DNA from: an uncultured Gemmiger sp.
GTDB lineage: Bacteria > Bacillota > Clostridia > Oscillospirales > Ruminococcaceae
Direction: 5' to 3'
Length of the DNA: 64,000 nt
Assembly: GCA_944388215.1 (NCBI GenBank)
Contig: CALXHT010000001.1
Coordinates: 248,001 to 312,000, forward strand
Below the pieces are notes generated by a model. That model saw only the letters and a list, made by a program, of their open reading frames with translations, did not search any database and had not been told where the DNA came from. Positions 12,247 to 41,407 of the stretch are shown here, piece by piece. The position numbers were made by a program, and so were the translations under genes. The stretch's first letter is position 1, and every line of letters begins with the position of its first letter.

Positions 12247-12663
12247 TTATTCCGGGGCAGGACCTTTTTGGGCGCGCAATGCAGCCAGCGTCACGCTATC
12301 CACATACTGGTTGATCAGATCGTTCAGCCCGCACCAGAACCCGATGGTCTGGCACTGGTCCCGCCGCGGGCATTCCATGTTGGCGCCCAGACAGGGGATG
12401 GCCGTCAGCTCGCCCTCCACCGCCCGCAGGATTTCCCCGGCGGTGATCTCGGCCTCGGGGCGGGCCAGCCGGTAGCCGCCCTGGGCGCCGCGCACACTGG
12501 TCACCAGTCCCGCCCGGGCCAGGGGGGTGATGATCTGTTCCAGATATTTCAGGCTGATCTGCTGGTTGTCGCTGATTTCCTTGAGCGGTACCAGCCCGTC
12601 GCCGTGATTGGCCAGCTCCACCATCAGACGCAGTGCATAGCGGTCGCGGGTCGAAAATTTCAT
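12247..12663 (-). CDS. Rrf2-family transcriptional regulator with three-cysteine Fe-S type cluster motif
   Basis: A 138-residue winged-helix protein starting MKFSTRDRYALRLMVELA, the Rrf2 opening. The recognition region ISLKYLEQIITPLARAGLV and the wing RGAQGGYRLA are clear. Cys91, Cys98 and Cys104 (C-X6-C-X5-C) match the cluster-ligand region of IscR/NsrR-type members, plus Cys111. CymR-type members lack these cysteines, so an Fe-S, NO or redox sensor is more likely than the cysteine-metabolism regulator CymR. No isc/suf genes are adjacent. A perfect palindrome at its own promoter suggests autoregulation. Confidence 0.88.
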   Translation of the reverse strand: MKFSTRDRYALRLMVELANHGDGLVPLKEISDNQQISLKYLEQIITPLARAGLVTSVRGAQGGYRLARPEAEITAGEILRAVEGELTAIPCLGANMECPRRDQCQTIGFWCGLNDLINQYVDSVTLAALRAQKGPAPE

Positions 12664-12795: not shown

Positions 12796-12824
12796 TTGAC
12801 AGAACTGCACCGGGGCGCTATACT
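12796..12824 (+). promoter_or_regulatory. Strong sigma-A promoter of the met leader and metQNI
   Basis: TTGACA (12796-12801), a 17-base spacer and TATACT (12819-12824). Transcription would start near 12831, leaving a leader of about 340 bases before metQ. A small hairpin, CCCAA/TTGGG (12829-12847), lies at the 5' end. Confidence 0.8.
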
Positions 12825-12882
12825 CTTACCCAAGGAAGCCCTTTGGGTTTGCCGGAATGAGTGAGAAAGGGGTACACGGACA

Positions 12883-12978
12883 ATGAACTGCAGCTACCGC
12901 TTCGGCATGATGATGTGCATGTGCAGTTTGCTTCGGCAGCCTGTGCCTGCTTTCTCATGCGCTCATCCGAATGCGTGA
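12883..12978 (+). CDS. Met/Cys-rich leader peptide of the methionine transporter operon
   Basis: A 31-codon ORF beginning MNCSYRFGMMMCMCSLL and ending at TGA 12976-12978. Six consecutive codons, 9 to 14, read Met-Met-Met-Cys-Met-Cys (12907-12924), and Cys also occurs at 3 and 26. AAAGGGG lies about 10 bases upstream of the ATG. An intrinsic terminator starts 13 bases after the stop, and methionine importer genes follow. By analogy with trp, his and leu leader peptides, the ORF is expected to report charged tRNA-Met and tRNA-Cys levels. The peptide itself probably has no function. No S-box or T-box motif is seen in this leader, so the ORF would be the sensor. Confidence 0.65.
   Translation: MNCSYRFGMMMCMCSLLRQPVPAFSCAHPNA
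12899..12938 (+). repeat. Two copies of GCTTCGGCA: candidate antiterminator strands
   Basis: GCTTCGGCA occurs at 12899-12907 and 12930-12938, flanking the Met/Cys codon run. Each can pair along all nine bases (two G-U wobbles) with TGTCGAAGT at 12998-13006, the left arm and loop of the downstream terminator. A ribosome stalled early in the Met/Cys run would cover copy 1 and leave copy 2 free. Confidence 0.55.
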
Positions 12979-12991
12979 AGAAAGAAACACA

Positions 12992-13030
12992 GCGGGGTGT
13001 CGAAGTTGTTCGACGCCCCGCTTTTGTTTT
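12992..13030 (+). terminator. Attenuator terminator in the metQ leader
   Basis: GCGGGGTGTCGAA (12992-13004) pairs with TTCGACGCCCCGC (13009-13021) through 13 positions with one wobble around GTTG, followed by TTTTGTTTT. It precedes any major gene of the transcript and follows the leader ORF, so it should act as a regulated terminator. Confidence 0.8.
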
Positions 13031-13060
13031 GGCTTCTACCGGAAAAGGAGGAACTTTGTC

Positions 13061-13105
13061 ATGGAACGTGGTCCGGTGTACAAACAGCCCGGTGTCCGAA
13101 TGTGA
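13061..13105 (+). CDS. Second small upstream ORF in the metQ leader (14 codons)
   Basis: An ATG at 13061 is preceded by AAGGAGG at an ideal 8-base spacing and encodes 14 residues ending in VRM before TGA (13103-13105). It lies after the terminator and 68 bases before metQ. The ribosome binding site looks better than that of metQ, so it may be translated. It could be a vestigial leader or a second translational control. No homology can be claimed. Confidence 0.35.
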   Translation: MERGPVYKQPGVRM

Positions 13106-13173: not shown

Positions 13174-14061
13174 ATGAAAAAGCTGATTTCTGTTACCCTG
13201 GCCGGCGCGCTGGCCCTGAGCCTGGCCGCCTGCGGCTCCACCGCTTCGGTTTCTGAGTCCGCCGCCTCTTCTGCGGACACCGCCTCTTCGGAGGCTGCTT
13301 CCACCGCCGAGACCGGCAGTGACCTGGCCGGCACCACCATCAAGGTGGCCGCCTCTCCCACGCCCCACGCCGAGATCCTCGGGGTGGCCAAGGACCTGCT
13401 GGCCGAGCAGGGCATCACGCTGGACATCATCGAATTCAGCGACTACGTGCAGCCCAACATGGTCACCGAGAGCGGTGAAGTGGACGCCAACTACTTCCAG
13501 CATCAGCCCTACCTGGATTCCTTCAACGAGGAGAACGGCACCCATCTGGTGAGCGTGGGGGACATCCACTATGAGCCGCTGGGCATCTATCCCGGCAAGA
13601 GCAAGAGCCTGGACGAGATTGCGGACGGCGCCGTCATCGCGGTGCCCAACGACACCACCAACGAGGCCCGTGCCCTGCAGCTGCTGGCTGCCCAGGGCAT
13701 CATCTCCATCCGGGAGGACGCCGGCCTGACCGCCACCGTCAATGACATCACCGAGAATCCCCACAACGTGCAGGTGGAGGAGCTGGAGGCAGCCCAGCTG
13801 CCCCGCACCCTGGCCGACGTGGACTACGCGGTGATGAACGGCAACTACGCCCTGGAGGCGGGCTTCTCGGTGAGCAAGGACGCCCTGGCCACCGAGGACG
13901 CCAATTCCGAGGCTGCCCAGACCTACGCCAACGTGCTGGTCGTCAAGGAGGGCAATGAGAACAATCCCGGCGTCCAGGCCCTGCTGAAGGCGCTGAAGAG
14001 CCAGGAGGTCAAGGACTTCATCAACGAGACCTACGACGGCGCCGTGGTGGCCCTTTTCTGA
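13174..14061 (+). CDS. metQ: Methionine ABC transporter substrate-binding lipoprotein MetQ
   Basis: The 295-residue lipoprotein binds methionine outside the membrane and delivers it to MetNI. A signal peptide ends in the lipobox LAAC, with Cys20 as the lipidated residue, followed by a Ser/Ala/Glu linker to about residue 48. The NlpA/MetQ domain begins TIKVAASPTPHAEIL and contains YFQHQPYLD, both characteristic. The start at 13174 is fixed by the signal peptide and by AAGGAGA upstream, although the frame is open further 5'. It is the first transporter gene after the attenuator and is separated from metN by a strong hairpin. Other NlpA family members bind related amino acids, but the metNI context makes methionine most likely. 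Confidence 0.93.
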   Translation: MKKLISVTLAGALALSLAACGSTASVSESAASSADTASSEAASTAETGSDLAGTTIKVAASPTPHAEILGVAKDLLAEQGITLDIIEFSDYVQPNMVTESGEVDANYFQHQPYLDSFNEENGTHLVSVGDIHYEPLGIYPGKSKSLDEIADGAVIAVPNDTTNEARALQLLAAQGIISIREDAGLTATVNDITENPHNVQVEELEAAQLPRTLADVDYAVMNGNYALEAGFSVSKDALATEDANSEAAQTYANVLVVKEGNENNPGVQALLKALKSQEVKDFINETYDGAVVALF

Positions 14062-14165: not shown

Positions 14166-15164
14166 ATGATCGAATTGCAACACCTGACCAAGCGTTTCGC
14201 CACCAAGGGCGGCACGGTGGTGGCGCTGAACGACATCAACCTGACCATCCGGGACGGCGATATCTACGGCATCATCGGCATGTCGGGCGCCGGCAAGTCC
14301 ACGCTGGTGCGCTGCATCAATATGCTGGAGCGCCCCGACGAGGGCAGCGTCACGGTGGACGGCCACCGTATGGAGACGCTTACCGCCGCCCAGCTGCGTG
14401 CCGCCCGGCGGGACATCACGATGATCTTCCAGCAGTTCAACCTGCTGATGCAGCGCACCTGCCTGCGCAACATCATGTTCCCGATGGAACTGGCCAAAGT
14501 GCCCCGGGAAAAGGCCGAGACCCGCGCCCGGGAACTGCTGGAACTGGTGGGCCTGCCCGACAAGGCGGAGGCCTACCCGGCCCAGCTTTCGGGCGGCCAG
14601 AAGCAGCGCATTGCCATTGCCCGCGCCCTGGCCACCGACCCCAAGGTCCTGCTCTGTGACGAAGCCACCAGCGCGCTGGACCCCAACACCACCCACGCCA
14701 TCCTGCAGCTGATCCAGAAGATCAACCGGGAGCTGGGCATCACGGTGGTGGTCATCACCCACCAGATGAGCGTGGTGGAGGAGATCTGCAACCGTGTGGC
14801 CATCCTGGACGAGGGCACCGTGGTGGAAGAGGGGGACGTGCAGGCCATCTTCAGCCATCCCACCTCGGCGGCGGCCAAGCGGCTGGTCTACCCGGCGGGG
14901 GCGCCCAAGGCGGAATCCCTGCCCGGCCACAAGCTGGTGCGGGTGGCCTTCAACGGCACCCAGACCACCGACAAACCCCTGGTGGCCAGCCTGGCCATTC
15001 AGTGCGGCGCGCTGGTCTCCATCCTGGCGGCGGATACCCGCATTGTCAACGGCCAGACGCTGGGCAGCATGCTGCTGGCGCTGCCCGACGATGAGAACGC
15101 CGCCAAGGCCATCGAGTATATCAAGAACTATCCCGGCATTACCTATGAGGAGGTGAACGGCTGA
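14166..15164 (+). CDS. metN: Methionine ABC transporter ATP-binding protein MetN
   Basis: A 332-residue ATPase with Walker A GMSGAGKST (about residues 38-46), signature LSGGQKQR (about 141), Walker B VLLCDEATSALD, and the C-terminal NIL/ACT-like domain (about 255-332) that binds methionine and inhibits transport when cytoplasmic methionine is high. The NIL domain separates MetN from polar amino-acid ATPases. Its stop overlaps the metI start by one base (TGATG), so the two are translationally coupled. Confidence 0.95.
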   Translation: MIELQHLTKRFATKGGTVVALNDINLTIRDGDIYGIIGMSGAGKSTLVRCINMLERPDEGSVTVDGHRMETLTAAQLRAARRDITMIFQQFNLLMQRTCLRNIMFPMELAKVPREKAETRARELLELVGLPDKAEAYPAQLSGGQKQRIAIARALATDPKVLLCDEATSALDPNTTHAILQLIQKINRELGITVVVITHQMSVVEEICNRVAILDEGTVVEEGDVQAIFSHPTSAAAKRLVYPAGAPKAESLPGHKLVRVAFNGTQTTDKPLVASLAIQCGALVSILAADTRIVNGQTLGSMLLALPDDENAAKAIEYIKNYPGITYEEVNG

Positions 15165-15862
15165 TGGCAGAGTTCCTGGCAAGCAAAGAGTGGGCAACCT
15201 TCCTGCAGATTCTGCCCACCATTCCCTTTGAAACCTGGGAGACCATCTGGTCCACGGCGGTGGCCACCCTGCTGGCGCTGGTCATCGGCCTGCCGCTGGG
15301 TGTCTGCCTGGTCACCGGTGAGCAGGGCGGCGTGCGGCCGCTGCCGCGCTGGGTCATGAGCGTGCTCAACGCCTTCATCAACCTGCTGCGCAGCGTGCCC
15401 TTCCTGATCCTGATGATCATCGTCATCCCGCTGTCCCGTCTGCTGGTGGGCACCTCCATCGGCACACCGGCCTCCATTGTGCCGCTGGTCATTGCCTCCT
15501 TCCCCTTTGTGGCGCGCCTGGTGGAGACCAGCATCCGCGAGGTGGATGCCGGCGTCATCGAGGCGGCCCAGAGCATGGGCGCCACCCCGCTGCAGATCAT
15601 CACCAAGGTGATGATCCCCGAGAGCATGCCCAGCCTGATCTCCAACGTGACCATCGCCACCACCACCATCATGGGCTATGGCGCCATGGCCGGCATCATC
15701 GGCGGCGGCGGTCTGGGCAAGATCGCCATCAACTACGGCTACTACCGTTTCAATGTGGTGCTGGAGATCTTTGCCACCGTACTGCTGGTCATCCTGGTGC
15801 AGATCCTCCAGACGGTGGGTACCCGGCTGGCCATCCGCTGCGACAAGCGGATCCAGCGCTGA
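15164..15862 (+). CDS. metI: Methionine ABC transporter permease MetI
   Basis: A 232-residue integral membrane protein with five or so hydrophobic helices and the permease coupling motif, seen as EAAQSMGATPLQIITKV near residue 130. It opens MAEFLASKEW and continues WETIWSTAVATLLALVIGLPLG, typical of MetI. It completes the MetNIQ importer. No clear strong terminator on the plus strand follows directly. Confidence 0.95.
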   Translation: MAEFLASKEWATFLQILPTIPFETWETIWSTAVATLLALVIGLPLGVCLVTGEQGGVRPLPRWVMSVLNAFINLLRSVPFLILMIIVIPLSRLLVGTSIGTPASIVPLVIASFPFVARLVETSIREVDAGVIEAAQSMGATPLQIITKVMIPESMPSLISNVTIATTTIMGYGAMAGIIGGGGLGKIAINYGYYRFNVVLEIFATVLLVILVQILQTVGTRLAIRCDKRIQR

Positions 15863-41068: not shown

Positions 41069-41407
41069 CGGCTGCGAAAGGCTTGGGCGGAATGTCACAA
41101 GCGTTCTGCGCAAGCCGCGATATGCGTTGATGCGGGAGGTTGCCGTCCGCCGATAGGTTGACGGGTTTTTCCGCGGAGTATGTCCGATCTTAGAACCGGG
41201 CGAAAGAATTACGGAAACAAAGGGATATGTACGGCGCTGCATTCTGCGGCACGGACCAATGTTCAACTAACTTTGTGATGATTCTTTCCGGGAGAACTGT
41301 GTGTAAACGGTTCACCGGATTTTGTCATGCGAGAAAGTTGAACGCCCGGAAACGTGTGTGATTTATCGGCTCGCCTAAGGCACAAATTTTATTAGGAGGC
41401 GAAAGCA
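41069..41407 (+). promoter_or_regulatory. Long structured leader of the S10 operon
   Basis: Helices visible are CCGTC/GACGG nested in GCGG/CCGC (about 41131-41178). Also visible is a nested element in which GTTCAACT (41261-41268) pairs with AGTTGAAC (41336-41343) around TCCGG-GAGAAC/GTTCACCGGA (41287-41319). No terminator T-run is obvious. Position suggests autoregulation by an operon-encoded protein such as L4, as in other bacteria; the sequence alone does not prove it. Confidence 0.45.

Follow-up and report, generated by a model that had tools for sequence, protein, structure and literature searches.

The metQNI operon of this Gemmiger genome is very probably controlled by a ribosome-mediated (leader-peptide) transcription attenuator that would read the supply of methionyl-tRNA. 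In Firmicutes, the control of methionine genes is usually ascribed to SAM riboswitches and T-boxes. The leader described here was found in a stretch of 64,000 nucleotides, referred to as the window, and an attenuation architecture had already been proposed for it in a first-pass annotation made from the sequence alone. Comparison across the genus supports that proposal and points to a conserved leader ORF with its Met codons, a promoter, a terminator and an antiterminator pairing (region 2 with region 3). The features of the locus are collected in Table 1.

Table 1. Features predicted at the metQNI locus (positions within the window)
Feature	Position	Strand	Remarks
Rrf2-family regulator gene, divergent from the leader	12247-12663	-	Pfam and NCBIfam
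Sigma-70-type promoter, TTGACA-17-TATACT	12796-12824	+	11/12 matches in each of the 29 aligned leaders
SD-occluding stem, 5' strand	12863-12869	+	Pairs with 12950-12956; minimum-energy folds
Shine-Dalgarno (SD) site of leader ORF1, AAAGGGG	12866-12872	+	Purine-rich in the leader alignment; 10 nt to the start
Leader ORF1, peptide MNCSYRFGMMMCMCSLLRQPVPAFSCAHPNA	12883-12978	+	31 codons; Met-Met-Met-Cys-Met-Cys at codons 9-14
Control codons ATG ATG ATG TGC ATG TGC	12907-12924	+	
Region 1, 5' strand of hairpin P2	12917-12925	+	Overlaps the control codons; pairs with 12942-12950
Region 2, 5' strand of the antiterminator	12932-12943	+	Copy 2 of GCTTCGGCA plus a 3' extension
Region 3, 5' arm of the terminator	12993-13004	+	Common to antiterminator and terminator
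Intrinsic terminator hairpin, T-run behind	12991-13022	+	14 bp, 4-nt loop; stem 12991-13004 / 13009-13022
Shine-Dalgarno site of mini-ORF2, AAGGAGG	13045-13051	+	
Mini-ORF2, peptide MERGPVYKQPGVRM	13061-13105	+	Ends with CGA (13097-13099), ATG (13100-13102), TGA
metQ, MetQ/NlpA substrate-binding lipoprotein	13174-14061	+	Putative regulated gene
metN, ATPase with NIL domain	14166-15164	+	Putative regulated gene
metI, permease	15164-15862	+	Putative regulated gene

Organization of the metQNI leader

Most elements reported in the first-pass annotation were recovered as described, namely the promoter, the leader ORF with its run of Met and Cys codons, and the genes behind it, which were identified as MetQ/NlpA, MetN and MetI. 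The terminator with its T-run also stands, although its stem is 14 bp long and not 13 bp. Two copies of GCTTCGGCA (12899-12907 and 12930-12938) and the complementary TGTCGAAGT (12998-13006) had been listed as pairing partners; their positions are right, and copy 2 with its 3' extension corresponds to region 2. Copy 1, on the other hand, had been given a functional role and has to be discarded, as it is not conserved: three relatives (L002-L004) read CGTTTTGGT, CGCTCTACC and CGCTTTGGC at that place. A second conserved reading frame behind the terminator, mini-ORF2, had been overlooked.

The fold of positions 12830-13030, including the terminator, gave z = -4.2 against shuffled sequences. No NCBIfam or Pfam family matched the four leader or mini-ORF peptides searched at E 1. 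Elsewhere in the window, an S10-Clostridia ribosomal protein leader (41119-41203, 48.4 bits) was the sole Rfam match above threshold.

Conservation of the leader ORF in the genus

A full-length metQ match was obtained in 31 of 34 genomes of the genus, and the three genomes where none was found (G018, G024 and G028) are drafts. From the 30 metQ loci retrieved, one (L005, genome G001) was dropped because it starts inside the gene and its upstream DNA is missing; in that genome the leader match sits on another contig than metQ. The aligned set therefore comprises 29 leaders, the window's own and those of 28 other species of the genus, including one (L028) that the initial regular expression had missed. 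Each of these 29 carries ORF1, and the 31st genome with metQ (G011, locus L288) has a shorter form of it with GMMCMC, which brings the readable metQ leaders with ORF1 to 30 of 30.

Promoter, ORF1 and terminator were all found in each of the 29 aligned leaders. The SD-led start of ORF1 lies 18, 21, 24, 27 or 30 nt ahead of the Met run, the in-frame start in the 29 leaders being partly a product of the way the search was constructed. The run itself reads MMMxMx in every leader (MMMCMC in 22, MMMCMY in six and MMMRMC in one). Alignment of the leaders, suggested with the original annotation as a check, thus shows Met codons and terminator kept in 29/29 and the antiterminator pairing maintained. 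The expected conservation of both Met and Cys codons holds for Met, as no Met of the run varies, but not for Cys, since the second Cys is replaced by Tyr in 6/29 leaders and the first by Arg in 1/29.

At E 0.001, a profile of the ORF1 peptide matched only the window's own genome among 394 genomes of the order. A gapped pattern that keeps the same frame with other control codons was also run on 35 genomes of the genus; this pattern, which misses the window's own subgroup, returned metQ and metG leaders plus other matches resembling coding sequence.

RNA pairings and proposed mechanism

The terminator follows ORF1 in 29/29 leaders, 10-16 nt past the stop codon in 27 of them and 19 and 24 nt past it in the other two. 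Its stem is paired in 98.6% of the alignment cells, and six of its ten pairs show changes on both sides. Concerning the antiterminator, regions 2 and 3 are paired in 90.3% of the cells, against 30-50% for slid versions of the same pairing. One of its pairs (87:169) was seen as UA, GC, UG, CG and GU, and the covariation score is above that of all 500 shuffles, whereas the double changes, found in 1 of 11 pairs, are fewer than the shuffle mean of 2.1. Hairpin P2, formed by regions 1 and 2, is paired in 99.5% of the cells, with one-sided changes and no double changes; the replacement of Cys by Tyr (UGC to UAC) gives an A-U pair in P2 where other leaders have G-U or G-C. In addition, a stem of at least four pairs between the SD stretch of ORF1 and a stretch near the end of the ORF, which would occlude the SD site, appears in 21 of the 29 minimum-energy folds.

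These elements suggest a mechanism in which the ribosome would decide between the two structures. When methionine is plentiful, the ribosome would translate the Met run close behind RNA polymerase, reach the stop codon and stand there between regions 2 and 3, probably ending near the base of the terminator; the terminator could then form and transcription would halt ahead of metQ. When charged Met-tRNA is scarce, the ribosome would stall on the Met run and hold region 1, leaving region 2 free to pair with region 3, so that the terminator would be blocked and metQNI transcribed. We infer the stalling and its cause, where the ribosome stands once it reaches the stop codon, and which way the operon responds. 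An early folding of P2 may be an alternative route to termination.

The stalled state was simulated by folding the RNA up to region 3 after removing the sequence up to the leading edge of the ribosome, which was assumed to lie 12 nt from the first nucleotide of the A-site codon. With the stall on control codons 2-6, the downstream RNA prefers the 2:3 pairing in 29/29 leaders, and on codon 1 in 28/29. It should be noted that in 26/29 leaders the free RNA, folded as far as region 3, favours 2:3 even with no sequence removed. For this reason, the terminated state cannot rest on P2 being the more stable partner, and termination calls for either a kinetic argument or a ribosome standing at the stop codon. 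Since ATG is the sole codon for Met and is also used for initiation, the translatability of such a leader under methionine shortage becomes a testable question.

Methionyl-tRNA synthetase leaders and the SAM riboswitch

The ORF1 profile also gave weaker matches in five genomes of the genus, as a second copy in four of them and as the only copy in G024, and these adjoin the methionyl-tRNA synthetase gene (metG) on its upstream side. Of 30 metG loci retrieved, 29 were readable (L067 had no start and was dropped), and seven of these carry an ORF1-type leader (L049, L050, L051, L069, L076, L077 and L078). Their runs contain two Met, or three in L050; L069 is without region 2, and in L078 the frame is shifted behind the Met codons while the nucleotides of region 2 are retained. 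An ORF2-type mini-ORF stands alone in another 6/29 loci (L053, L057 and L072-L075), and neither element was seen in 16/29, including the window's own metG (L059). The fact that related leaders precede the methionyl-tRNA synthetase gene makes the charging of Met-tRNA the likely signal. The lack of an ORF1-type leader at the window's own metG and the short Met runs of the metG leaders count against the attenuator.

The picture given by the first-pass annotation, in which S-box RNAs were simply not seen, is corrected by the presence of a SAM riboswitch elsewhere in the genus. It occurs once each in 32 of 35 genomes, and all six loci read (L241-L246) precede metK, the family having been checked for one of them (L241). 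Sensing seems to be divided in this genus: metK would respond to SAM, and the methionine transporter, joined in some species by methionyl-tRNA synthetase, would respond to Met-tRNA charging through a leader peptide.

Met-rich leaders in other bacteria

Leader-type control of methionine genes, as predicted from these comparisons, clearly extends beyond the window's genome. A scan for the exact run in 84,980 species genomes returned 34 loci, with about two chance matches expected by our own estimate. Nine of them were taken as lying outside Gemmiger. Six are clostridial and show a Met/Cys-rich ORF ahead of metNIQ-type genes, named by resemblance, and one from the Porphyromonadaceae (order Bacteroidales) precedes an O-acetylhomoserine sulfhydrylase gene. 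The matches in Pseudoalteromonas (L122) and in Acinetobacter (L131, at the edge of its stretch) were set aside as chance.

A survey unbiased by the run was based on MetN, which was found in 70 of 291 genomes of the class, at 71 places of which 70 were fetched; one (L178) had less than 120 nt upstream and was dropped, leaving 69 usable loci. An SD-led ORF with at least three Met in seven codons precedes metN in nine of these 69 loci, against 0.2 in dinucleotide shuffles. A hairpin with a T-rich tail lies between ORF and gene in eight of the nine, the tail being weak in L149; in L205 the scanner picked a hairpin inside the ORF, and a second one, with a T-run, can be seen farther downstream. Rfam, run on 60 of the 70 metN loci, placed a T-box ahead of metN in six and a SAM riboswitch in two, and neither was detected at any of the eight Met-leader loci scanned.

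Regarding the Bacteroidales match, a search of 148 genomes of its order located the sulfhydrylase in 49. From 30 loci retrieved, 28 were usable (no start was found in L213 and L234), and seven of these, the starting locus L211 among them, have a short ORF rich in Met. Mononucleotide shuffles without an SD filter, a weaker control than the clostridial one, gave 0.15. Furthermore, an RNA model of the Gemmiger leader (R1) matched 40 genomes among 295 relatives. Of 12 places fetched, five proved to be Met leaders, in G011 and in four genomes of other genera (G034, G125, G137 and G150), and seven looked like chance; the leaders of the other genera precede metQ-, metN- or sulfhydrylase-like genes. 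The Met-rich leaders ahead of metN and of sulfhydrylase genes, which are independent of the Gemmiger leader, also speak for the attenuator. Their spread over several families of Clostridia and over Bacteroidales-type genomes points to a wide class of small ORFs ahead of methionine genes, which is absent from the family libraries used in this analysis.

Alternative signals and regulators

Sensing of cysteine, or of methionine and cysteine jointly, is the best of the alternatives, though an unlikely one for Gemmiger. The Cys codons would also be control codons, and the transporter or pathway would handle methionine and cysteine alike. Among the residues of the nine clostridial leaders, which were chosen on Met alone, 30 of 300 (10%) are Cys; the share is 2.5% in 69 control ORFs from those regions, likewise short and SD-preceded. 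Another leader (L200) lies upstream of genes resembling cystathionine lyase/synthase and cysteine synthase, followed by metN. A single Cys within or next to the run is retained by five of the seven Gemmiger metG leaders, and the Streptomyces metL leader likewise ends with CMCRRMCAF (PMC8079986). Against this, the Cys positions of the Gemmiger metQ leaders vary while the Met positions of the run never do, a conserved RNA stem takes in both Cys codons, and the second target is methionyl-tRNA synthetase, with two of its seven leaders (L076 and L078) having no Cys in the run. Since the Cys codons vary and lie in a stem that the change to Tyr preserves, Met is the better-supported signal. Cysteine may be sensed as well in some bacteria, but in Gemmiger the comparative evidence favours methionine.

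The divergent Rrf2-family gene raises the question of whether promoter control by its product could be the real switch, with leader and terminator setting a basal level. Its family was assigned with both Pfam and NCBIfam, the IscR and CymR models match below their cut-offs, and the divergent arrangement would suit such a role. This reading is improbable, as it leaves unexplained why the Met codons never vary, why the terminator covaries, why the antiterminator is maintained and why related leaders precede metG. The regulator could, nevertheless, add promoter control alongside the attenuator.

An aptamer-type riboswitch or a T-box, in which the RNA would bind methionine, SAM or uncharged tRNA directly and the ORF would be incidental, could account for the strongly conserved nucleotides outside the Met run, P2 and the SD-occluding stem among them, and is nonetheless very improbable given that the leaders of other families have Met codons and layout in common but little sequence, that the ORF1 profile finds its own genome alone in an order where Met-rich leaders do exist, that the SAM riboswitch of the genus lies ahead of metK in the six loci read, and that no Rfam family reached its gathering score at the locus, including the SAM riboswitch (RF00162) and the T-box (RF00230). 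The absence of S-box and T-box at this locus, as noted before, is therefore borne out by the Rfam scan; its sub-threshold matches there (E 0.03, 0.06 and 0.24) are a Pseudomonas sRNA, a snoRNA and a microRNA, far under the cut-offs.

Mini-ORF2 and the CGA-ATG pair

Besides the attenuator, 26 of the 29 metQ leaders of the genus contain mini-ORF2, which is absent from L012, L023 and L024; none was seen in L288 (G011) either. Its consensus is M-x-x-[GS]-[PS]-x-[CY]-[KRG]-Q-P-G-[VI]-R-M followed by a stop or Cys, and the form found at metG has Phe in place of Val/Ile. In 32 rows, Q is conserved in 31 and P and G in all 32 despite CAG/CAA, CCC/CCG and GGT/GGC/GGG changes, figures to be read with the fact that the rows were chosen by a pattern already requiring CGAATGTG, which fixes most of these bases. 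In these pattern-selected rows, mini-ORF2 has one property of nascent-chain arrest peptides, in that the amino acids near its end are kept through synonymous changes.

The last Arg codon is always CGA, a codon used for 2 of the 725 arginines in the genes tallied. A pattern accepting any CGN codon found mini-ORF2 in 26/29 metQ loci, the same 26 as the CGA pattern. Among matches to the ORF2 pattern with CGT, CGG or CGC, the ten loci read show the motif LQPGVRMCV inside a long ORF that we take to be rpoB; the likeness to ORF2 is thus a coincidence, and these matches were rejected. Outside the genus, a pattern requiring Arg before Gln found no ORF2 in 394 genomes of the order, a result that says little because this pattern misses the window's own copy.

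Mini-ORFs that end in CGA-ATG also stand a short way upstream of genes for metQ, metG or sulfhydrylase-like proteins. Of the 70 metN/metQ loci of the class, 4 have CGAATGTG in their upstream DNA, against 0.44 expected by our own estimate, and in these four (L145, L149 with MKFYFEELVRANFRFGRM, L153 and L202) it falls in the reading frame of a short ORF, at its end or close to it. Mini-ORF2-like ORFs follow the terminator in L277 and L283, and L278 has CGA-ACG. CGA-ATG is found within Met-rich leaders as well, twice in L191, three times in L200 and once in L202 (the same occurrence as that of CGAATGTG); among 13 Arg-Met pairs in ten hand-picked leaders, six use CGA. In L200 (300-520), the leader ORF with its three CGA-ATG pairs is followed by a hairpin with a T-run. 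By eye, a GAGGGA stretch, often TTGAGGGA, was noticed behind mini-ORF2 in about nine loci (L001-L004, L006, L007, L009, L011 and L014), often flanked by short complementary arms.

It is conceivable, as a tentative proposal on which we would place somewhat less than even confidence, that the two leader ORFs work in series: the Met-run attenuator first, and then mini-ORF2 as a Met-tRNA sensor acting after transcription through the CGA-ATG pair. With the rare CGA codon in the P site while the following ATG is read, a single Met codon might become a sensitive sensor of Met-tRNA, and it would act on translation or mRNA stability. The CGA-ATG pair is seen again ahead of Met leaders and within them in several clostridial families. 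In Salmonella, CGA is reportedly read more slowly than CGU and CGC, and that screen for slow codon pairs also returned two Pro-Gly pairs, which its authors connect with Shine-Dalgarno-like sequence (PMC4046918). A methionine sensor built on CGA-ATG would be a deduction from these patterns, and mini-ORF2 may be more novel than the attenuator itself.

Comparison with known systems

In the literature covered, to which subscription papers mostly did not belong, no Met leader was reported ahead of methionyl-tRNA synthetase, in Clostridia or in Bacteroidota. For Actinobacteria, no conserved RNA structures upstream of methionine operons were reported in 2005 (PMC1262725), and leader-like short ORFs were noted in 5' UTRs of Bacteroides thetaiotaomicron, with no mention of Met in the passages on them (PMC7366714). 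One precedent was found, the predicted Met/Cys-rich leader metL ahead of metNIQ in Streptomyces lividans, which resembles the Gemmiger leader. There metL is described in one strain, on a leaderless transcript and with a typical Rho-independent terminator said to be missing (PMC8079986). The Gemmiger leader differs in its SD-led ORF, its covarying terminator and kept antiterminator, its second target metG in some species and mini-ORF2.

Other systems share parts of the design. In beta-proteobacteria, the metXZ RNA element was found by comparison and proposed to control methionine genes through a terminator and antiterminator; the section describing it mentions no ORF (PMC4239095), and its genes and phylum are other than those of Gemmiger. 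The His leaders of hisS and hisZ in Bacilli are closer in another sense, as there a Firmicute leader peptide replaces the T-box ahead of aminoacyl-tRNA synthetase genes (PMC2965389). Those leaders read histidine and belong to Bacilli, whereas the Gemmiger leader would read methionine in Clostridia and has a transporter as its main target.

The trp, his and leu attenuators of Proteobacteria are laid out alike, with control codons, regions 1-4 and a terminator, and follow the same logic of stalling (PMC2965389). The Gemmiger leader departs from them in using Met and in that its free RNA does not favour region 1:2 over 2:3. Moreover, about 32 nt separate region 2 from the stop codon behind it, and a ribosome standing there would keep region 2 apart from region 3 and not cover region 2. 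The metQNI leader would thus represent a mechanism of a known kind, well supported by sequence comparison, with an amino acid that is almost undescribed for it.
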